This document shows, piece after piece, positions 22,045 through 34,274 of a stretch of 64,000 nt of DNA. A program made the position numbers and the translations under genes. Every line of letters starts with the position of its first letter. The stretch's first letter is position 1. Below the pieces are notes generated by a model, which worked only from the letters and a program-made list of their open reading frames with translations, was not told where the DNA came from and made no database searches. Source of the DNA: Polyangiaceae bacterium (lineage in GTDB: Bacteria; Myxococcota_A; Polyangia; Polyangiales; Polyangiaceae); NCBI GenBank assembly GCA_020846005.1, contig JADLEQ010000034.1:1-64000 (forward strand), in the 5' to 3' direction.

Positions 22045-22391
22045 CGACGCCGCGCGAGCCGCCGACACCCTCAGCGGTCCGTGCCAGCGAGGCCGCGTTC
22101 GACGAGGCGGCCGGGTCCACTCCCGAGGAGATGCCGCCGGCGACGTTCGAGCAGTTCGTGTTGTCCCTCGCGCACTCGGCGTGGGTGCACCTCGGCGACG
22201 CGCCGGATCCCGCCAGCGGGAACCGCGAGGTGCACGTGCCGCTGGCGCGCCACACGATCGATCTCCTGTCGCTGCTGCAGGACCGCACGCGCGGCAACCT
22301 CTCCGGGCAGGAGGAGCGGCTCCTCGACCAGGCGCTCTACGATCTCCGGCTCCGCTTCGTCGAGGTCGCGCGTGGGCAGACGAGCGGCTGA
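22041..22391 (+). CDS. DUF1844 domain protein
   Basis: 116 residues from GTG 22041, overlapping the previous stop (GTGA). The last 75 residues match the DUF1844 pattern: FEQFVLSLAHSAWVHLGD, then HTIDLLSLLQDRTRGNLSGQ and EERLLDQALYDLRLRFVEV. The family is small, helical and of unknown function, widespread in deltaproteobacteria and acidobacteria. Confidence 0.85.
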   Translation: MTTPREPPTPSAVRASEAAFDEAAGSTPEEMPPATFEQFVLSLAHSAWVHLGDAPDPASGNREVHVPLARHTIDLLSLLQDRTRGNLSGQEERLLDQALYDLRLRFVEVARGQTSG

Positions 22392-23586
22392 CGCTGCGCG
22401 CGCAGGGTCACGTCGGCGTCACCGCGCGTGGGTGACCGCCGCGCTGGCGCCAGCGCTCCTCGTCGGGTGCGATCAGCGGGCTCCCGGGCTCGGCCCGGCG
22501 CCGTCGGGCTCGGTGGGGCCGGCGCCGCTGGCGTCCGTCGCTGAGCCCTCGCCGACGGCGCCACCCGCGGCGTCGCCCACGCCCGTCGTCAGCGCGGAGC
22601 CGCCGGTGCCGGGCGCTCCGCCCACGTTCGCGGATCTCGCGGCGCGGGTCGACAGCGCGGTCGTCTACGTGGAGACGATGCAGGAGCAGACCGGCGTGAC
22701 CGGCCGCCGCCGGGTCGTGGGAGGCGGGGTGGGCAGCGGCTTCGTCTACGACCCGGCCGGCTACGTGCTCACCAACCACCACGTGATCGCCGACGCGACC
22801 TCGATCACCTTGAAGTTCCGGGACGGCCGGGAGATCCCGGCCCAGGTCGTCGGGCGCGATCCACCTACGGACGTCGCCGTCCTCCGCGTCGAGGCGACCG
22901 GGCTCGCGCACGTCCCGCTCGGGGACTCGGACGCCGCGAGGGTCGGCGACTGGGTCGTCGCCATCGGCAACCCGTTCGGTCTCGCCCACACCGTGTCGGC
23001 GGGGATCATCTCCGCGAAGGGGCGCACCGGCTCCGATGTGGTCGGGCTCGGCGATCCTTCCGGCTATTACAGCTTCCTTCAGACCGACGCGGGCATCAAC
23101 CCGGGCAACTCCGGCGGCCCGCTCATCGACCTGCAGGGGCGGGTGGTGGGCATCAACACCGCGATCCGCGCCCGCGCCAACAGCATCGGCTTCGCCATCC
23201 CGGTGAACATGATCAAGGAGCTGCTCCCGCACCTGCTGCGGGACGGCAAGGTCCGGCGGAGCGCCATCGGGATCAGCGTGTCGAGCATCCTGCCCGCGGA
23301 CGCGTCGCGCCTCGGCCTGGCAGGCACGAACGGCGCGCTGGTGCAGCGGGTGCTGCCGGGGGGCGCGGGGGATCGGGCCGGCCTCCAGATCGACGACGTC
23401 ATCGTCGCGATCGACGGCGCAGAGATCGCGCGTCACGAGAAGCTCCGCTGGGTGACCAGCCTGGCCGGGGTGGGGCGGCGGGTGACGCTTCGCGTCATTC
23501 GAGGCGGTCGCACCCTCGACCTGGCTGTCACTCTGGGCGAGCTCCCGGAGCAGCCGGCGATCCCCCAGGGGGAAGAGGAACCCTGA
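22372..23586 (+). CDS. HtrA/Deg-type serine protease, predicted lipoprotein
   Basis: 404 residues from GTG 22372, giving a basic leader and lipobox LLVGC (Cys33). The alternative GTG 22432 would leave too short a signal peptide. After a Pro/Ser/Ala spacer (34-85) the trypsin-like domain shows His137 (LTNHHVIAD), Asp167 (PPTDVAVLRV) and Ser247 (NPGNSGGPL). One PDZ domain follows (about 300-390; GALVQRVLPGGAGDRAGLQIDDVIVAIDG). It is expected to be anchored in the envelope, facing the periplasm, and to degrade misfolded proteins. It overlaps the DUF1844 gene by 20 bases, and the next gene encodes an ECF sigma factor, a plausible envelope-stress link. Confidence 0.93.
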   Translation: MGRRAADAARAGSRRRHRAWVTAALAPALLVGCDQRAPGLGPAPSGSVGPAPLASVAEPSPTAPPAASPTPVVSAEPPVPGAPPTFADLAARVDSAVVYVETMQEQTGVTGRRRVVGGGVGSGFVYDPAGYVLTNHHVIADATSITLKFRDGREIPAQVVGRDPPTDVAVLRVEATGLAHVPLGDSDAARVGDWVVAIGNPFGLAHTVSAGIISAKGRTGSDVVGLGDPSGYYSFLQTDAGINPGNSGGPLIDLQGRVVGINTAIRARANSIGFAIPVNMIKELLPHLLRDGKVRRSAIGISVSSILPADASRLGLAGTNGALVQRVLPGGAGDRAGLQIDDVIVAIDGAEIARHEKLRWVTSLAGVGRRVTLRVIRGGRTLDLAVTLGELPEQPAIPQGEEEP

Positions 23587-23700
23587 CGAGCGGCCCCGCG
23601 GCGGGGAGCCCAGCGGGTCGGGCGCCGTACCAGGGGAGTGCCCGCTCGAGTCCGACGCCCGCTCCCCTCTCCCCGCCCCCCTGATCTCGAAGTCACGGGG

Positions 23701-24399
23701 GTGAATAGCGCCGTTCGCGGCGCGTCCAACCGGGAGAGCGCCCGTGCGGATGCCGATCGAGATCGATGCCTCGTCGAGCGCGCCCAGCGCGGAGACGACC
23801 TCGCCTTCCGCGAGCTGGTGGAGCGGCACCAGCGACGCGCCTTCGTGGTCGCCGTCACGCTCGTCCGTGACGAGCACGACGCGCGGGAGATCGTGCAGGA
23901 GGCCTTCCTGCGAGCCCACCGGAACCTCGCCGCGTTCGGTGGGACCTCGGCGTTCTTCACGTGGCTCTACCGCATCGTCCACAACCTCTCGATCGACTTC
24001 GTCCGGCGCCCGAGCCGCCGGGAGTCCACCCAAGAGCCCCGCCCCGACGCCTCCGAGGACGACATCCCGCTCCTCGGGCGGGTCGACGGCGCCGACCCGG
24101 CCGCGTCGGTCCGCCGCGCGGAGATCGCGCGTTGCGTCGGCGCCGCGCTCGACGCGCTCCCCCCGTACCACCGCGGGGTCATCGTGATGCGCGAGCTCGA
24201 GGGGCTCAGCTACGAGGAGATGGCGCGCGCCATGGGCGTGTCGAAGGGCACGATCATGAGCCGGCTGTTCCACGCTCGACAGAAGCTCCAGCGCGCGCTC
24301 CGAGACTGCTACGAGGAGCAGGTCGGCCCGGCGCCCGGCCGCCCGGTCGCGACGGCCGAGGCGAGCGCCGGGCCCAGCGAGCGCGGGAGGCCGACGTGA
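23701..24399 (+). CDS. ECF-type RNA polymerase sigma factor
   Basis: 232 residues. Region 2 (about 25-95) contains AQRGDDLAFRELVERHQRRAF, DAREIVQEAFLRAHRNL and FFTWLYRIVHNLSIDFVRR. Region 4 (about 150-205) contains LPPYHRGVIVMRELEGLSYEEMARAMGVSKGTIMSRLFHAR. There is no region 3, as in RpoE-type sigma factors. GTG 23701 is preferred over GTG 23638, whose extension is Pro-rich. It overlaps the anti-sigma gene by 4 bases (GTGA). It presumably drives envelope-related genes in response to the anti-sigma factor. Confidence 0.93.
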   Translation: MNSAVRGASNRESARADADRDRCLVERAQRGDDLAFRELVERHQRRAFVVAVTLVRDEHDAREIVQEAFLRAHRNLAAFGGTSAFFTWLYRIVHNLSIDFVRRPSRRESTQEPRPDASEDDIPLLGRVDGADPAASVRRAEIARCVGAALDALPPYHRGVIVMRELEGLSYEEMARAMGVSKGTIMSRLFHARQKLQRALRDCYEEQVGPAPGRPVATAEASAGPSERGRPT

Positions 24400-25509: not shown

Positions 25510-26355
25510 TCACTGCGCGACGGCGAGGACGAGGGTCACCGTCGTGCCCGCGCCCGCCCGGCTGTCGAGGACGACCGTCCCCCCCGCCTCCGCCACGATG
25601 TCGCGGACCACGACCAGACCCAGCCCGGTACCGCAGCCCGCCGCCTTCGTCGTGAAGAACGGCTCGAACACGCGGGCGAGATCCTCCGGCTCGATACCAC
25701 ACCCGGTGTCCTCCACGGTGATCACTACGTCCTCCGCCTCGGGGCGATGCCGCGCGCGCACGAGCAGCGTCCCCGGACGCCCGACCATGGCGTGCGCCGC
25801 GTTCGTGAAGACGTTGACGAAGACCTGGACGAGGCGCGCCTCCACGCCGCGCACCCTCGGGAGATCCTCTGGCACGTCTCGCACCAACTCCTCGACCACG
25901 CCGGCCGTCTCCGGCGCGCTCAGCCAGAGCGCGCGCGCCACCGCCGCGCCGACGTCGACGCTGCCGACGACGTCGGCCGCTGGGCGCCCGTAGGCGACCA
26001 GCTCGCGCGCGAGCTCGAGGACGCGCCGCGCGGCGTCTTCGATGCGAGCCAGCCGCTCCACGTCCTCCGCCGCGCCTCCGGTCAGCACCGCGCGCCTGCG
26101 CGCCACATCGGCCGACGCCGCGACGGCGGCGAGCGGGCTCGCCATCTCGTGAACGACCCCGAGCGCGAGCTGCCCGAGCGTGGCGAGCTTCTCCGCCTGT
26201 GCGAGCTGCCGCCGGAGCCAACGGACCTCGTCGGCGACCCGCTCCACGTCGACGGACATCGCCAGCCGCTGCTCCGACTCCGGTCCGCGCAGCTCTCGCA
26301 GATCGGAGCCGCGCGTCTGCGGCTCGCCCGACTCGGCGTCGTCGACCGGGCTCAC
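25510..26355 (-). CDS. Histidine kinase (phospho-acceptor plus ATPase domain), no sensor domain
   Basis: 281 residues from GTG 26355. A coiled-coil lead-in (WLRRQLAQAEKLATLGQLA) precedes the H-box (GVVHEMASPLAA, His69) and a complete HATPase domain: N box VNVFTNAAHAMV, G1 VEDTGCGI, F box VFEPFFTTKA, G2 GCGTGLGLVVV. No membrane or PAS/GAF sensor domain. It overlaps by 4 bases the upstream gene, whose product has sensor domains and an H-box but no ATPase; the two probably work together. Confidence 0.93.
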   Translation of the reverse strand: MSPVDDAESGEPQTRGSDLRELRGPESEQRLAMSVDVERVADEVRWLRRQLAQAEKLATLGQLALGVVHEMASPLAAVAASADVARRRAVLTGGAAEDVERLARIEDAARRVLELARELVAYGRPAADVVGSVDVGAAVARALWLSAPETAGVVEELVRDVPEDLPRVRGVEARLVQVFVNVFTNAAHAMVGRPGTLLVRARHRPEAEDVVITVEDTGCGIEPEDLARVFEPFFTTKAAGCGTGLGLVVVRDIVAEAGGTVVLDSRAGAGTTVTLVLAVAQ

Positions 26356-28358
26356 CGCCGCGACTCCTCGCTGCTGGCCTTCTCGAGGTCGAGGATGCGC
26401 GCCTCGCCGACGTAGCTCTTCGTCTCGTACCGGGTGATCTTGCCGACCTTACGCACGATCTCGGCCATCCGCTCCGCCTCGCCGATGATGACGCCAGCGG
26501 CCGCGTGCGCGGGCGTCGCCGGGTCGAGCTGGCGCCGGACCAGCTCCGCGTAGCCCAGGACGGCGGTGAGCGGCTGGTTCAGCTCGTGGGCGGCCGCGCC
26601 CGCCAGCTCCGCGACGATCGCCTGCCGCTCACGGATCCGGAGCTCCTCCTGCGTCCGGGCGAGCTGGGCCTCCATCTGCAGGCGCTGCCGCACGTCCGTG
26701 AACACGCCGACCGATCCGACGGGCACGCCGTGGTCGAAGACGAGCGCGGCCGAGAGCACCACCGCGATCGTCTGCCCTTCGCGGCCGAGCATGTCTACGC
26801 GGTGGTCCTCCAGCCGCCCAGCGCCGCTGGTGCTCGGCGCTCGGATCAGGCGCATCACCTCCTCCGCGACCCCCGGCGGATACAGCCGCCGTACGTTCAT
26901 CCGGCCGACGACCTCCTCCGGCGTCCACCCGAACATCCGCGCCGCGGCGCGGTTGTAGAGGAGCACGAGGCCCTCCAGATCAGCGTACACGATGCCGTCC
27001 ACCGAGCTCTCGATCACGCGCTCCAAGAACTCCTTCGTCTTCGAGAGCTCGAGCGCCGTGCGTCGCTCGAGGGTCACGTCCCTCAACGTGACGAGCACCA
27101 ACCGCTCCTCGTGCAGGACGGACCCGAAGCTCGCACTGGCGGTGAGCGTCCCCCCCGCGCGGTGCCGGACGCTCAGATCGACCCCGCGCGGGTAGACCCC
27201 GGCCTGGAAGCCCGCCAGCAGCTCGTCGGCGCGCTGCGCCTCGGCGTCGATCACGAGGTCCCGCAGCGACAGCCCGCGGATCACCTCCTCCTCCTGGCCC
27301 GTCAGCTCGCGGGCGCGCGGGTTCGCGAACATCACCGTGCCCTCGAGATCGAGGACGAGCATGCCGTCAGCCGCGCTCTCGAAGAAGTCCGCGTAGCGCC
27401 GGAAGCGCTGCACGCGCCGCTCGGCCTCGACACGGGCGAACCCGATCGCCTCGACGTCGTCGCGGAGCGCCTGCAGGATCCGAGCGTTCCGCAGCGCCAC
27501 CGCCGTCGCGTGCGCGACCAGGTCGACCAGCTCGAGATCGGAATCGGAGAAGGCGCTGCGCTCGCGGGTGCGTAGGAAGAGCACGCCCGCGGGTCGGCCC
27601 TCGTGCTGGATCGGGACCAGCGCCAGCGAGGCGAAGCCGACGTGGGAAGGATCGCGACGGACACCCTCGAGCAGGGGATGGACGCCGGCATCTCTCACGA
27701 CGACGGCGTGCCCGGTGCCGAGCACCTCGCGGATCTCGGGGTACTTCTCCAGATCGATCGGCAGGTCCGAGATCCGAGGATCGTCGCTGCTGGCGACGAC
27801 GTGCCCGACCAGACTCGCCTGGGCGACCAGCACGATCGAGCACCGATCCACGCCGGTCAGCTCCGCCAAGCGGTGCACGACGGTGAACAGGATCTCGTGC
27901 ATGTCCAGGCTGGACGCGAGCGTCCGCGTGAGCTCGAGCAGGGTCTGCGCGTCCCGCTCGCGGCGACCGAGGCGCTCCACGTACTCGCTCATCCGGAGCT
28001 GGCCGCGAACTCGGGCGATCAGCTCGGCGGTGCGGAACGGCTTGTGGACGTAGTCGTCCGCCCCCGAGGCGAACACGCGACGGATGTCCTCGTCCGACTC
28101 CACCGCCGTGGCGACGATGACCGGGACGTCGGTGAGGCGAGAGTCGGCGCGCAGGCGGCGCAGCACCTCGAAGCCGTCGGGCGCGGGCATCACCAGGTCG
28201 AGCAGGACGGCCGAGGGGACGTTTCGCTCGAGCCAAGCCACGGCCTCGTCCCCGCCACCGACGGGCACGACAGGCCTCCCCGTACCCTCGAGCGCCTCAC
28301 GCAGCCGCTCTCGGCTCACGGGGTCGTCGTCCACCACGAGGAGAGGCAGCGCGGCCAT
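26352..28358 (-). CDS. Receiver-GAF-PAS-PAS protein ending in a phospho-acceptor helix without ATPase domain
   Basis: 668 residues from ATG 28358. Receiver domain (1-120) with DDD at 10-12, phospho-Asp54 (LLDLVMP) and Lys in VHKPF. GAF (about 145-300; VDRCSIVLVAQ, GVLFLRTRERSAFSDSDLEL). Two PAS domains (about 325-440 and 455-565; ADGMLVLDLEGTVMFANPRA, DGIVYADLEGLVLLYNRAA). Then an H-box helix pair (IVAELAGAAAHELNQPLTAV). The protein stops about 60 residues after this His, so the HATPase domain is missing. Cytosolic; no membrane segments. Histidine phosphorylation must come from elsewhere, most simply from the overlapping downstream kinase. Confidence 0.92.
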   Translation of the reverse strand: MAALPLLVVDDDPVSRERLREALEGTGRPVVPVGGGDEAVAWLERNVPSAVLLDLVMPAPDGFEVLRRLRADSRLTDVPVIVATAVESDEDIRRVFASGADDYVHKPFRTAELIARVRGQLRMSEYVERLGRRERDAQTLLELTRTLASSLDMHEILFTVVHRLAELTGVDRCSIVLVAQASLVGHVVASSDDPRISDLPIDLEKYPEIREVLGTGHAVVVRDAGVHPLLEGVRRDPSHVGFASLALVPIQHEGRPAGVLFLRTRERSAFSDSDLELVDLVAHATAVALRNARILQALRDDVEAIGFARVEAERRVQRFRRYADFFESAADGMLVLDLEGTVMFANPRARELTGQEEEVIRGLSLRDLVIDAEAQRADELLAGFQAGVYPRGVDLSVRHRAGGTLTASASFGSVLHEERLVLVTLRDVTLERRTALELSKTKEFLERVIESSVDGIVYADLEGLVLLYNRAAARMFGWTPEEVVGRMNVRRLYPPGVAEEVMRLIRAPSTSGAGRLEDHRVDMLGREGQTIAVVLSAALVFDHGVPVGSVGVFTDVRQRLQMEAQLARTQEELRIRERQAIVAELAGAAAHELNQPLTAVLGYAELVRRQLDPATPAHAAAGVIIGEAERMAEIVRKVGKITRYETKSYVGEARILDLEKASSEESRR

Positions 28359-28413: not shown

Positions 28414-31014
28414 TCAGCCGCAGGTGCCCGACGCGAGGCACCGCTCGCCGGCAGCGCAGGTCGCCGCCCCGCAGACGCAGAGGCCGCTCGCATTGCACGT
28501 CCCGCTGCCGCCGCCGTCACAGTCGCTCGCCTGATCGCAGCGACATGCGGCCGCCTGACACACGAAGCCCGGGGGGCATTCCCGTCCGCACGCCCCGCAG
28601 CTGAAGGCGTCCGTGGCGAGGTCGCGGCAGCCCGGCGGGTCCTGGCAGCAGACGACGGTGTCCGCCCCGGTGCACTTGGCGCCCCCGTTGCACGAGCAGT
28701 CAGAGCCGGAATTGCACGACTCGCCGAACCGGCAGACCTCGTTGATCGGGCACTCGCATTTCCCGGTGCCGCTGTTGCACGTGCCGCTGCCGCCACCATT
28801 GCGGCAGCTGTTGTTGTCGTCGCAGCGACAGACCTCGAGCCCGCCCAGACTGGCGCAGATCTTCCCGTTCTGGGCGTCGCACGAGTTGCTGCACACGCCG
28901 CAGTGGGTCGCGCTGCGGGAGGCCTCGCAGCCGTCGTCGGCGGTGGGGGCCGCCGGGGTCGTGCAGCTCACGCGGCCGAGATCGCACACCGGATCGCATA
29001 CGCCGAGCGAGCAGCTCACGGCAGTGACGTTGGCGCCCGAGCAGGCGTGCCCGCACGCCCCGCAGTCGGTGGCGTCGGTCGCGAGATCCGCCTCGCAGCC
29101 GTCGTCCGCCGCGGGCGCCGCCGGGCGGGAGCAGTTGCCGAGCGTGCCGCTGCAGGCCGAGGTGCAGAGCCCGGCCGCGCAGGTCGCGCCGCCGGTCACG
29201 CCCACGTTCGAGCAGGCTCGCCCGCACCCGCCGCAGTGCGCGGTCGTCGACTGGAGGTTCACCTCGCAGCCGTCGTCGACGGAGGGCGCCGAGGGCTGGC
29301 CGCAGTTGCCCCACCCCGCCGTGCAGGTCGAGTCGCACGCGCCGGCCGTACAGCGCCGCGTCGCGGTGTTGGTGGACGAGCAGGCGCGACCGCACGCGCC
29401 GCAATTGGCCACGTCCGCTCCGCCGTTCAGCTCGCAGCCGTCGTCCGCTGCAGGAGGCGCCGGCTGGCTGCAGTCGAGCCAGGGCGCGGAGCAGAGCGGC
29501 GCGCACAGCCCGCCGGAGCACGCGCGCGTCCCGACGTTGGCCGTGGAGCAGCTTCGCCCACAGGCGCCGCAGTTGTCCGGATCGAACTGGACGTTCTTCT
29601 CGCAGCCGTCGTCCGCCGCGGGCGCGGCCGGGGTGGAGCAGTCGGCCCACCCGGTCGAGCACGTCGGCGCGCACTGCCCGGCCGAGCACCACCGCGCGGC
29701 GGTGTTGGTGGAGGAGCAGACGCGGCCGCACGCGCCGCAGTTCGACGGGTCCGCGTCCACGGCGATCTCGCAGCCGTCGTCCGCCGCGGGCGGCGCGGGC
29801 TGCGAGCAGTTGCCGTACCCAGGCGTGCAGGTCGACGTGCACCGCCCCGCCGCGCACGCCGCCGTCGAGACGTTCACGGTGGAGCAGGCGCGGCCGCATC
29901 CGCCGCAGTTCGCCGCGTCGGTGGCGAGCGCGGTCTCGCAGCCGTCGTCGGGGGACGGCGCGGCGGGCTGCTCGCAGTTGCCGTAGCCGGGCTGGCACAA
30001 GCTGGTGCACACGCCGCCGGAGCAGCTCGCGCTGACGGCGCCCGCGCTCGAGCACGCCCGCTGGCACGCGCCGCAGTGCGCGCTCGACGTGCCGAGGTTC
30101 GTCTCACACCCGTTGGACGCGACGCCGTCGCAGTCCCCCCACCCCGAGTCGCAGACGAGCTGGCACTGGCCCCCCGCGCACGTCCCGGTGGCGTGAGCGC
30201 CGCCGCACGCGTTGGAGCAGTAGCCACAGTGCTGGGCGCTGGTGTCCGTGTTCGTCTCGCAGCCGGGCACGCCGTCGCAGTCCGCGAGCGGAGCGGCGCA
30301 CGGGTTCGCTACGCACTGGCGGTTGACACAGGTGTAGTTCCCGAGGCTGGAGCAATCGGTGCCACACGCGCCGCAGTCGGTGGGCGAGCGGAGATCCGTC
30401 TCGCACCCGGTAGCGTCGTCGCCGTCGCAGTCGTCCCAGCCGACGACGCACGAGTCGACCACGCAGCCCCCCGGCGAGCAGCGCGCGACCGCGTTGGCGA
30501 GCGCGCACCCCAGCCCGCAGCCCAGGCAGTTCGCCTCGTCCTCGTGGACGTTGGTCTCGCAGACCGTGCCGGGGTCACCGTCGCACTCCTCGCGATCGGG
30601 GAGGCACTCATCCGGCGTGCACTGCCCCTGAAGATCACAGCGCGCGGTCGCGGCCGCGAACGAGCAGGGCACGCACGACGGCGATGCGCAGCCGTACGCC
30701 GGATCGTCCGTCCGCGCGCACCCGCCGACGCACGGCTTCTCGCCGGGGCCGCAGCCGCCGTCGGGGGGGGAGTCGGAGGGGGCGTCCGAGGCGTCGATCG
30801 GCGCCCCGCTCGAGCCGCCCGCGCCGCCCGTGCCCGCGATCCCGCCGCTCCCACCGCCGCCGACGGCCCCCGCGCCGCCCGCGCCGCCGCTCGACGCGTC
30901 CGTGCCCGCGTCGGCGCCCGCGCCGCCCGCCGTGCCGACCTCGAACGAGTCGAAATCGTGGGTGCAGTGCGCCAAGAGGCCAGCGAGCGCGAGGCCCGCG
31001 AGCGCGCGCCGCAT
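28414..31014 (-). CDS. Large Cys-rich repeat lipoprotein
   Basis: 866 residues from ATG 31014. Signal peptide MRRALAGLALAGLLAHC with a borderline lipobox (His at -1). A Gly/Ala/Ser/Asp spacer (about 25-85) leads into Cys-rich modules of about 45 residues, each roughly CGxCGxxCSxxN...C..G.C...C..G.G.C..P..P..DDGCE; about ten copies, followed by EGF-like C-terminal modules. No catalytic domain seen. Presumably exported and disulfide-bonded at the outer surface, where it may be structural or adhesive. It overlaps the TPR/PEGA-like gene stop by one base (TGATG). A second such gene pair sits at 60375-62427. Confidence 0.85.
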   Translation of the reverse strand: MRRALAGLALAGLLAHCTHDFDSFEVGTAGGAGADAGTDASSGGAGGAGAVGGGGSGGIAGTGGAGGSSGAPIDASDAPSDSPPDGGCGPGEKPCVGGCARTDDPAYGCASPSCVPCSFAAATARCDLQGQCTPDECLPDREECDGDPGTVCETNVHEDEANCLGCGLGCALANAVARCSPGGCVVDSCVVGWDDCDGDDATGCETDLRSPTDCGACGTDCSSLGNYTCVNRQCVANPCAAPLADCDGVPGCETNTDTSAQHCGYCSNACGGAHATGTCAGGQCQLVCDSGWGDCDGVASNGCETNLGTSSAHCGACQRACSSAGAVSASCSGGVCTSLCQPGYGNCEQPAAPSPDDGCETALATDAANCGGCGRACSTVNVSTAACAAGRCTSTCTPGYGNCSQPAPPAADDGCEIAVDADPSNCGACGRVCSSTNTAARWCSAGQCAPTCSTGWADCSTPAAPAADDGCEKNVQFDPDNCGACGRSCSTANVGTRACSGGLCAPLCSAPWLDCSQPAPPAADDGCELNGGADVANCGACGRACSSTNTATRRCTAGACDSTCTAGWGNCGQPSAPSVDDGCEVNLQSTTAHCGGCGRACSNVGVTGGATCAAGLCTSACSGTLGNCSRPAAPAADDGCEADLATDATDCGACGHACSGANVTAVSCSLGVCDPVCDLGRVSCTTPAAPTADDGCEASRSATHCGVCSNSCDAQNGKICASLGGLEVCRCDDNNSCRNGGGSGTCNSGTGKCECPINEVCRFGESCNSGSDCSCNGGAKCTGADTVVCCQDPPGCRDLATDAFSCGACGRECPPGFVCQAAACRCDQASDCDGGGSGTCNASGLCVCGAATCAAGERCLASGTCG
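28910..30560 (-). repeat. Tandem Cys-rich protein modules (about 45 residues each)
   Basis: Within the lipoprotein gene, the DNA repeats at roughly 140-base spacing. Each unit encodes an acidic DDGCE start and a CGACGRACS-type core. The copies are diverged at DNA level, so this is an old protein-level expansion, not a recent tandem duplication. Confidence 0.75.
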
Positions 31015-32081
31015 CAGAATCGCCCCAGGACGCCGACGGATCGAGGCGTCGCGTAGACCCGCACGCCCTCGCGCGGGCGCGCCGCAGCGCCCGACTCCCG
31101 CCCCGGCTGGTCGAGCAGCCAGAGCGCCACCCCGGCGCCGAGCCCGACCACGCCGACTCCGAGCGACAGGTTCGCGAGGAGCTGCTGCGACGCGCCCGAG
31201 TCGATGTCCGACTGGCGATCGGCGGGACATACCCCTCCGGGGCAATCCGCCTCCAACTCCGCGTAGGTCGAGTTCGCCATCGACCCGAAGACGGCGAAGC
31301 CCACCAGGCCGAGCACCCCGACGCCGCCGGCCACGTACGCGTACGGCCGGAGGCTCGGCCGATCGCCTTTCGCGCCGGGATCCCGCGGCGGTTCGTCCGT
31401 GGACGGCGGAGCGTCGCCCGGCTCGCTCTGCGCCGGCTCCTCGGGCGCGGCGCCCGTCCCGGGGGGCTTCGCGGGGGCGTCGAAATCGAGGCGGACCTTG
31501 AGCCGCTCGCCCTTACGAACCATCACGTCCTGGCGCACCTCGCGGCCGTCCGCTGCGCGCGCGATCACGAGGTGCGGCCCGGGCGCCACCCCGACCGTCG
31601 GCAGGACGTCGGCGGGCACCTCGCGGGTGCCGACCGTCACCACGACGCCCGCGCCGCCGCCCGCCACCTCGATCGCGAGGGCGGCCACGCGCGGCAACAG
31701 CTCGAGCAGCTCCTTCTCCGCCGACTCGGCCGCCGCCGCGTACTTGGGCAGGGACGCGGCGAGCTGGGCGGCCTCGCGCTGGGTCGCGGCGAACTCCTCA
31801 AGCGCGCGCGTGAGCTCGCCCGCGTCCCGGTACGCACGCGCCATCATCATGTGCGCGTTCGGGCTGGCCACCGCCTCGTACGCGAGCTCGAAGGCGGCCG
31901 CCGCTTCCTTGAAACGGCCCGCCTTGAAGTGGTCGACCCCCCGCTGATAGTGCTCGGTCGCGGTCGCCTGCTGCTCCGGCGTCGCGGAATCGGGCGGGGC
32001 GCCGCGCGCGAGGGCGGAGGGGCCGATCGCGAGGGCGGCCAGCAACCCGCCGAGCGAGGCGAGGACGCGGATCGCACGCAT
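31014..32081 (-). CDS. Exported TPR protein with PEGA-like domain and C-terminal membrane helices
   Basis: 355 residues. Signal peptide (MRAIRVLASLGGLLAALAIGPSALA). Two or more TPRs (about 40-110; HYQRGVDHFKAGRFKEAAAAFELAYE, NAHMMMARAYRDAGEL). A PEGA-like beta domain (about 135-195; GVVVTVGTREVPADVLPTVGV, GPHLVIARAADGREVRQ). An acidic/Pro linker, then two hydrophobic segments (AYVAGGVGVLGLVGFAVFG and ANLSLGVGVVGLGAGVALWLL). The same architecture recurs at 61402-62427. Probably a periplasm-facing scaffold; partner role with the Cys-rich lipoprotein is inferred from the overlap. Confidence 0.85.
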   Translation of the reverse strand: MRAIRVLASLGGLLAALAIGPSALARGAPPDSATPEQQATATEHYQRGVDHFKAGRFKEAAAAFELAYEAVASPNAHMMMARAYRDAGELTRALEEFAATQREAAQLAASLPKYAAAAESAEKELLELLPRVAALAIEVAGGGAGVVVTVGTREVPADVLPTVGVAPGPHLVIARAADGREVRQDVMVRKGERLKVRLDFDAPAKPPGTGAAPEEPAQSEPGDAPPSTDEPPRDPGAKGDRPSLRPYAYVAGGVGVLGLVGFAVFGSMANSTYAELEADCPGGVCPADRQSDIDSGASQQLLANLSLGVGVVGLGAGVALWLLDQPGRESGAAARPREGVRVYATPRSVGVLGRF

Positions 32082-32868: not shown

Positions 32869-34274
32869 CCCTGGAGCGAGGGCGCCTGCCGAAGGTCGAT
32901 CGGGTCGCGCTCGCGCCCGAGCTCGACGAGGCGAGAGCGACGCTCGGGCGGCGCGTCGTCGTGGCGCTAGCACGCGACGCGATCGCGGCGGCTCGCCACG
33001 CGACCGCCGACGGGCACCCCCCCGCGACCCTCGACGAAATCGTGGCCGACGTGAGCGCGCGCGCGCGGGCGCGTGGGCGCGCCCGCGTCGTCCCCGCGCT
33101 GAACGCGACGGGGGTCGTGCTGCACACGAACCTCGGGCGCGCACCGCTCCCCGCACCGGCCCTGGCCCGCATCGCGGCGTGCGCGGCGGGTTACGCGAGC
33201 CTGGAGATGGATCTGCCCACCGGCGCGCGCGTCCGCCGCGGCGCGTCGGCGGAGGCGCGCCTCGCTGCCCTCGTCGGCGCGCGCGAGGCGCTCGTCGTGA
33301 ACAACAACGCCGCGGGCGTCCTCCTCGCGCTCTCGGGGATCGCCGCCGGCCGCGAGGTCGTCGTGTCGCGCGGCGAGCTCGTCGAGATCGGGGGCGGGTT
33401 CCGCATCCCCGAGGTGCTGGCTCGCTCGGGGTGCCGGCTGGTCGAGGTCGGCACGACGAACAAGACGCGCGTCGAAGACTTCGAGCGCGCCCTGGGCGAA
33501 CGCACCGCGTGTCTGCTCCGCGTCCACCCGAGCAACTTCCGCATCGAGGGGTACGCCGAGCGCCCCGCGCTCGGCGCCCTCGCCCGCCTCGCGCACGCGC
33601 ACGGGATCCCGATCGTCAAGGACCTCGGCGGCGGGCGCCTCGGCCACGTCGAGTCCCCGTCGCTGCGCGAGGAGCCCACGGTGGAGGCGTGCCTGGCGGC
33701 CGGCGCGGACCTCGTGTGCTTCAGCCTCGACAAGCTCTTCGGCGGCCCGCAGGGCGGCGCCGTGGTCGGGGACGCCGCCCGCGTCCGCGCGCTGCGCGAC
33801 GATCCGCTCGCGCGCGCGCTGCGGCTCGACAAGCTCCGGCTCGCGGCGCTCGAGGCGGTGCTCGACGCCCACGAGCGCAGCGCGACAGAGGAGCTCCCCG
33901 CCCTCGCGATGTTGCTCGCGCCCGCAGAGGCGCTCCTCGCGCGCGTCGAGGCGTGGCGCCAGCGGCTCGGCCCGAGCGACGAGCGCCTGCGCGTGATCGA
34001 GACGACGGCGGCCGTCGGCGGCGGCTCGCTCGCGGAGCTCCCGCTCCCATCGGCCGCGCTCGCGATCGCGGGCGACGACGCCGAGGCGCTCGCGCGAGCG
34101 CTCCGGTGCGGGGAGCCACCGGTCGTCCCCCGGATCGAGCGCGACCGGGTCCTGCTGGACGCGCGCACGATCTCGCCGACCGACGACGAGCGCTTCGTCC
34201 GCGCGGTGGCCGCGGCGCTCGGGGTGACGCTGGCGCCGGCCGCCGCGACCGCTCCGGCGGACCGCCCGGCGTGA
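32865..34274 (+). CDS. selA: L-seryl-tRNA(Sec) selenium transferase (selenocysteine synthase)
   Basis: About 469 residues. It converts Ser-tRNA(Sec) to Sec-tRNA(Sec) using selenophosphate. The SelA signatures are clear: LPKVDRV at the N terminus, LNATGVVLHTNLGRAPL, VVNNNAAGVLLAL, VSRGELVEIGGGFRIPEV, RVHPSNFRIEGY, and the PLP Lys in SLDKLFGGPQGG (about Lys290). The first ATG/GTG in frame is GTG 32961, which would remove the conserved LPKVDRV start. CTG 32865 forms a CTGA overlap with the upstream stop and gives normal length (E. coli 463), so it is the likely start; CTG 32871 is also possible. selB, selC and selD are not in the window. Confidence 0.92.
   Translation: MTLERGRLPKVDRVALAPELDEARATLGRRVVVALARDAIAAARHATADGHPPATLDEIVADVSARARARGRARVVPALNATGVVLHTNLGRAPLPAPALARIAACAAGYASLEMDLPTGARVRRGASAEARLAALVGAREALVVNNNAAGVLLALSGIAAGREVVVSRGELVEIGGGFRIPEVLARSGCRLVEVGTTNKTRVEDFERALGERTACLLRVHPSNFRIEGYAERPALGALARLAHAHGIPIVKDLGGGRLGHVESPSLREEPTVEACLAAGADLVCFSLDKLFGGPQGGAVVGDAARVRALRDDPLARALRLDKLRLAALEAVLDAHERSATEELPALAMLLAPAEALLARVEAWRQRLGPSDERLRVIETTAAVGGGSLAELPLPSAALAIAGDDAEALARALRCGEPPVVPRIERDRVLLDARTISPTDDERFVRAVAAALGVTLAPAAATAPADRPA

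Follow-up and report, generated by a model that had tools for sequence, protein, structure and literature searches.

Can the work of one histidine kinase be divided between two overlapping genes, and what does each of the two chains contribute? This question is raised by a gene pair on the minus strand of a 64,000-nucleotide stretch of contig JADLEQ010000034.1 from a Polyangiaceae bacterium (the window), which the initial annotation described as a sensor gene with an H-box but no ATPase domain, plus an ATPase partner gene. Open reading frames and Pfam searches confirmed this description. Gene A (26352..28358; all features of both genes are on the minus strand) encodes a sensor of 668 residues with the order REC-GAF-PAS-PAS-HisKA-tail, in which no HATPase domain was found by Pfam. 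The receiver domain (Response_reg, residues 7-118, 28005..28340) contains the likely phospho-acceptor aspartate D54 (28197-28199), present in 71 of 84 aligned rows, and is followed by a GAF domain (residues 152-289, 27492..27905), a first PAS domain matching PAS_8 (residues 320-373, 27240..27401) and a second PAS domain (residues 443-556, 26691..27032), all assigned by Pfam. A HisKA/DHp hairpin (residues 584-638, 26445..26609), supported by Pfam, by conservation and by an AF2 model, carries the H-box HELNQPL with His591 (26586-26588); it leads into a conserved C-terminal tail (residues 639-661, 26376..26444) recognized in an alignment of 127 rows, and the chain ends 77 residues past His591. 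Gene B (25510..26355) begins with a GTG start codon and encodes a HisKA-HATPase histidine kinase of 281 residues. The two genes share the four bases GTGA (26352..26355), which contain the stop of A and the start of B, as had been annotated. Scans for promoters and terminators found no candidates.

The surroundings of the pair in the window are mixed. Just upstream of A is an ORF of 943 residues (28414-31245, minus strand) with abundant Cys and Gly repeats and no Pfam match. On the plus strand, a gene for an HtrA-like protein with a trypsin-like peptidase and a PDZ domain (22081-23586) adjoins one for an ECF-type sigma factor (23638-24399; both by Pfam), and SelA, L-seryl-tRNA selenium transferase, is encoded at 32961-34274 (376.5 bits). 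No tRNA genes were found in the window.

The domain content of B is that of an orthodox histidine kinase, with HisKA and a HATPase domain in which the N, G1, F and G2 boxes are intact. The HATPase_c match (residues 171-279, 25519..25845; Pfam and alignment) scored 87.5 bits in Pfam, and the HisKA domain (residues 60-124, 25984..26178; Pfam and alignment) scored 23.0 bits, under the cut-off of 26.9 that the HisKA domains of its relatives pass. Because B keeps its own intact H-box with His69 (26149-26151), it is not a kinase without a phospho-acceptor. The window B stands apart within its clade: its H-box reads HEMASPL, where most aligned relatives have HELNNPL, its N-terminus is about 130 residues shorter than that of even its shorter relatives, its composition is unusual, and its branch in the B tree measures 1.8 against a median of 0.35. 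The annotation of the downstream kinase as having no sensor holds for the window B and for some relatives; three of ten relatives scanned had no named domain N-terminal to HisKA, while the others carried PAS and sometimes GAF (the PAS of L213 falling below its cut-off). Since other B proteins have these domains and the window B is shortened, the description is limited to this B and part of its family.

The C-terminal end of A is conserved. A has a single clear full-length copy in its own genome, where 17 of the 18 matches to a HisKA-tail profile have a HATPase domain in the same ORF and A is the sole exception. Orthologues of A were found in 105 of 144 genomes of the order (E 1e-100 or better) and in 55 of 282 genomes of the phylum (E 1e-60 or better), and the combined searches gave 130 A loci, one per genome. 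HATPase was missing from every A of these 130 genomes but the fused one. With L193, which is without its C-terminus, dropped from the count, the distance from the H-box His to the end of the chain, with the His included, was 73-149 residues in 128 of 129 A proteins, with a median of 84; the lone exception, at 315 residues, is a fusion. In the 127 rows used to count conservation, which omit L193, L211 and L212, the H-box HELNQPL was invariant except for one L to I change. The tail residues G639, T646, Y649, G651 and I655 were invariant in all 127 rows and D657 was present in 126, giving the motif T-x-x-Y-x-G-x-x-x-I-x-D at the C-terminal end. The stretch that follows the hairpin is about 30 residues long, of which some 22 form the conserved tail, and it occupies the place where a kinase would run on into its ATPase domain. 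The conserved end distance and the invariant tail residues indicate that A ends in a conserved element and not in a random truncation. The annotated end just after the His helix pair was accordingly right in placing the end near the hairpin, but a conserved tail intervenes.

The AF2 model of the A C-terminus contained a confident helical hairpin, with most of the tail at pLDDT under 50. Foldseek gave the kinase hairpins of ZraS, ERS1 and GacS as the nearest solved folds, without any match that reached E 0.001. Solved structures matched the hairpin, and none covered the whole tail. At the other end of the protein, the BLAST match to A began past residue 20 in 47 of the 130 A loci, where REC is either missing, diverged or cut short. 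The receiver domain is thus optional, and the annotated gating by a receiver could not be upheld as a general feature.

The pair was sought in other genomes. A HATPase domain was encoded within 6 kb downstream of A on the same strand at 98 of the 130 loci, one of which is a fusion, leaving 97 separate pairs with B directly 3′ of A. Of the other 32 loci, eight run into the end of their contig within 1.5 kb, and in 24 the sequence reaches far enough and shows no B. Unfused A loci with sufficient sequence on the downstream side thus number 121, and 97 of them are followed directly by B. The start codon of B was at -4 in 61 of the 97 pairs and within -11 to +10 in 93. Overlapping two-component genes are common (22.6% of same-strand neighbour intervals were negative in one survey, as given in PMC3018481), and overlap by itself is therefore weak evidence, unlike the conservation that it has in these genomes. 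A tree built from 109 HisKA-HATPase regions placed three fusions and 93 of the 96 complete adjacent B's in one clade (99/92), with L213, L214 and L215 falling outside it, as did the ten other kinases of this genome that were included. As judged by these comparisons of sequence, the A/B arrangement is an old and widely kept design and not a broken gene.

Two types of natural fusion join the parts of A and B in one chain. The first (L204, genome G069) is a 661-residue frame with the order PAS, PAS, A-type HisKA-tail, B-type HisKA and HATPase, and retains both H-boxes. The second (L290 and L291, genomes G017 and G011) came to light in genomes with a B-grade match but no A and joins an A-type GAF-PAS-PAS to a B-type HisKA-HATPase; it has lost the HisKA-tail and H-box of A and has the B H-box only. 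Its sensor parts scored 253 and 241 bits on an A-sensor profile on which held-out A proteins scored 319 upward (median 613, n=74) and the next non-A match scored 160, and its kinase parts scored 399 and 396 bits on the B profile. The two types lie at different places inside the B clade and most likely arose independently, as far as this tree can tell. On the strength of two independent fusions, A is read as a detached sensory subunit of B, joined to it via the HisKA-tail. Homologues fused with a single H-box thus exist in two genomes, against the strict version of the annotated design. Because the second fusion keeps one H-box only, the His of A appears to be dispensable once the parts are covalent, which makes the case for an essential A histidine weaker and the case for sensors and engine as one unit stronger.

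Domain content, the conserved His boxes and tail, the conserved adjacency and overlap, the orthology of B and the two fusions together form the basis for regarding A and B as two subunits of one signalling unit, a sensory half and an engine half, a reading that we favour by a modest degree. One overlapping operon would yield the separate chains, A as the sensory half and B as the engine half. A would sense through its GAF and PAS domains, and through REC where present; its HisKA hairpin and tail would meet B, most likely by packing on the HisKA helices of B and/or being presented to its ATPase domain, and the signal of A would set the activity of B. Physical contact between A and B, the direction of control and the transfer of phosphate are what we infer here. 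His591 would likely either be phosphorylated in trans or exchange phosphate with B or its target, and phosphorylation in trans is in our estimate quite possible but short of probable. The annotated claim that two genes share one kinase stands in so far as one unit is indicated by adjacency (97/121), -4 starts and two fusions; against its strict version stands the H-box that B has of its own.

A is also found by itself. In the 24 A genomes with no adjacent B, a genome-wide profile search gave no B-grade match; the best scored 241.8 bits, and 88 held-out adjacent B's had a minimum of 248 and a median of 468 bits, a gap that is clear when judged by the median but slim for the lowest-scoring B's. 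Relocation of B elsewhere in these genomes was considered and rejected, as the matches were at background level only (241.8 versus 248). The B-less loci in the 127-row count keep the His and tail of A. In G111, a genome outside the 130, A was present with no B-grade match at E 1e-60. In the reverse search, B was missing in 11 of 13 tested A-less genomes, and the other two were the genomes of the second fusion. In the sampled genomes, then, B goes with A, and A can stand without B. In several B-less genomes (loci L219, L220, L187, L189 and L160), a groEL-like chaperonin gene, recognized by eye from translations, follows A on its strand at a distance of about 1.6 kb.

The HisKA-tail profile also matched other genomes, the named ones among them being Desulfobacterales and Nitrospirae. 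Matches at 1e-15 or better occurred in 71 of 148 genomes, a count that includes matches stopping before the tail, probably ordinary kinases, and matches at 1e-18 or better in 14 of 100 genomes. Among Pseudomonadota, the phylum of Steroidobacter, a search at E 1e-18 with the profile that had given the 14 of 100 matched none of 249 genomes, an empty result to be taken with caution. A HATPase domain in the same ORF was found in none of the best 34 nor the best 15 outside loci, which, as best matches of a tail-containing profile, were selected for the tail and not for the absence of HATPase; within the short flanks covered, one of the 34 had HATPase in another ORF. (L296 lies at the same place as L257, and an in-frame stop interrupts L262.) Across the 34 diverse rows, the H-box residues H, E, Q and P were invariant, and the chains mostly ended 1-15 residues past the tail. 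Their input parts varied among REC, PAS and a Tll0287-like sensor, and several proteins, from Desulfobacterota and Nitrospirota, were simply REC-HisKA-tail. Two loci (L283:578-2302 and L286) encode a chain of REC, HisKA-tail, REC and GGDEF with no HATPase, which makes a diguanylate-cyclase protein that includes a phospho-acceptor module. At L257:1492-2571 and related loci, from a Nitrospirae genome, a Tll0287-like sensor is joined to HisKA-tail, again with no HATPase. Given these outside proteins and the persistence of A without B in 24 genomes, other partners must exist.

Such proteins bring up a rival explanation, that the HisKA-tail is a stand-alone phosphotransfer or phosphatase module comparable to Spo0B or to the second transmitter in the Red pathway of M. 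xanthus. Under this model, B would autophosphorylate and pass phosphate to the receiver of A or to another regulator, and the His of A would relay or remove it. HisKA-tail proteins with no kinase seen alongside in Desulfobacterota and Nitrospirota fit this explanation, particularly those that are REC-HisKA-tail and the two in REC-HisKA-tail-REC-GGDEF chains, as does the invariance of the four H-box residues over such diverse rows; the Red transmitter is itself reported to take phosphate from a receiver (PMC3018481). However, the match at the REC end of A is missing in 47 of 130 loci, the second fusion discards the HisKA-tail yet keeps sensors and kinase, and a stand-alone module has no need of dedicated pairing with one kinase. 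We regard this explanation as unlikely.

Still less likely is that A modulates B with no chemistry of its own, its hairpin forming mixed bundles with B in the style of RetS-GacS and so blocking or shaping B autophosphorylation. A pure modulator needs no invariant His, Glu and Gln in its H-box, and all 127 rows keep them. RetS is reported to inhibit GacS autophosphorylation, to take its phosphate and to dephosphorylate its receiver (PMC5992135), the complex of the GacS DHp with RetS (7n0e) was among the closest folds to the model, weakly (E 0.18 to 0.63), and the dispensability of the His of A in the second fusion would suit such a role. That the gene is broken or misassembled, with a frameshift or stop dividing a single kinase, has a negligible chance despite the overlapping frames and the half-kinase upstream, since B has its own H-box, so that joining the frames gives two, and the same division is seen in 97 genomes, where the ends of A are conserved.

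Returning to A and B as sensory and engine halves of one unit, a possible but rather doubtful extension is that the HisKA-tail is a distinct module that plugs varied sensors into kinases encoded elsewhere. A dedicated, translationally coupled kinase would then have been acquired in Myxococcota, the tail would be a docking element that takes the place of a covalent sensor-engine link, and the fusions would be a way back to one chain.

Split kinases and HisKA proteins without HATPase are known kinds. In CheA3/CheA4 of Rhodobacter sphaeroides, the phospho-acceptor His and the ATPase are described as lying across two chains (PMC3591291), and a split CheA is described in Synechocystis (PMC7656254). 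A is like the former in having a phospho-acceptor and no ATPase domain, whereas CheA4 is described as without a phospho-acceptor (PMC3591291) and B has its own HisKA. The pair is therefore a split kinase in the sense that one partner has a phospho-acceptor and no ATPase domain, and not in the strict sense of an ATPase partner without a phospho-acceptor, as B has His69. In addition, A uses HisKA and not the P1 domain of CheA, and A and B have no chemotaxis domains. With sensor domains, a HisKA with its His and no HATPase in the chain, A belongs among the HisKA proteins without HATPase, of which 1556 were counted in 42417 SMART HisKA proteins (PMC3591291). Archaeal REC-(PAS)n-HisKA proteins such as AF_1472, compared by description, similarly have sensor domains and a C-terminal HisKA with a conserved His and are HATPase-less; in the relevant text of PMC5847659 none of the REC class is reported as studied, and no conserved tail, partner kinase gene or fusions are reported for the type, unlike A/B. 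In RetS-GacS, as in the proposed unit, one sensor kinase alters another by contact and phosphate exchange (as described in PMC5992135). RetS keeps a histidine kinase region, whereas A has no ATPase domain. To our knowledge, the RetS and GacS genes do not overlap.

Among individual kinases, the H-box HELNQPL and hairpin of A resemble FixL (48.6 bits), and B resembles AtoS and ZraS. FixL continues into a HATPase domain, whereas A ends with the tail. Phosphotransferases of the Spo0B/ChpT type have a HisKA-like hairpin and then a degenerate ATPase-like domain; A, with a tail only after the hairpin and no HATPase match, is not of this type. A description of the tail or of the A-B family was not found in the open-access literature searched, and a search by terms in the available text of a myxobacterial two-component survey (PMC4603909) showed neither the tail nor the pair.

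Among HisKA proteins, those without HATPase amount to a few percent and are usually passed over as incomplete kinases. In the A family, such a protein comes with a diagnostic tail, a kinase gene dedicated to it and natural fusions, which makes its role testable with a known partner. A/B also provides a HisKA-type equivalent of the CheA-type split kinase of PMC3591291, which has been studied biochemically.
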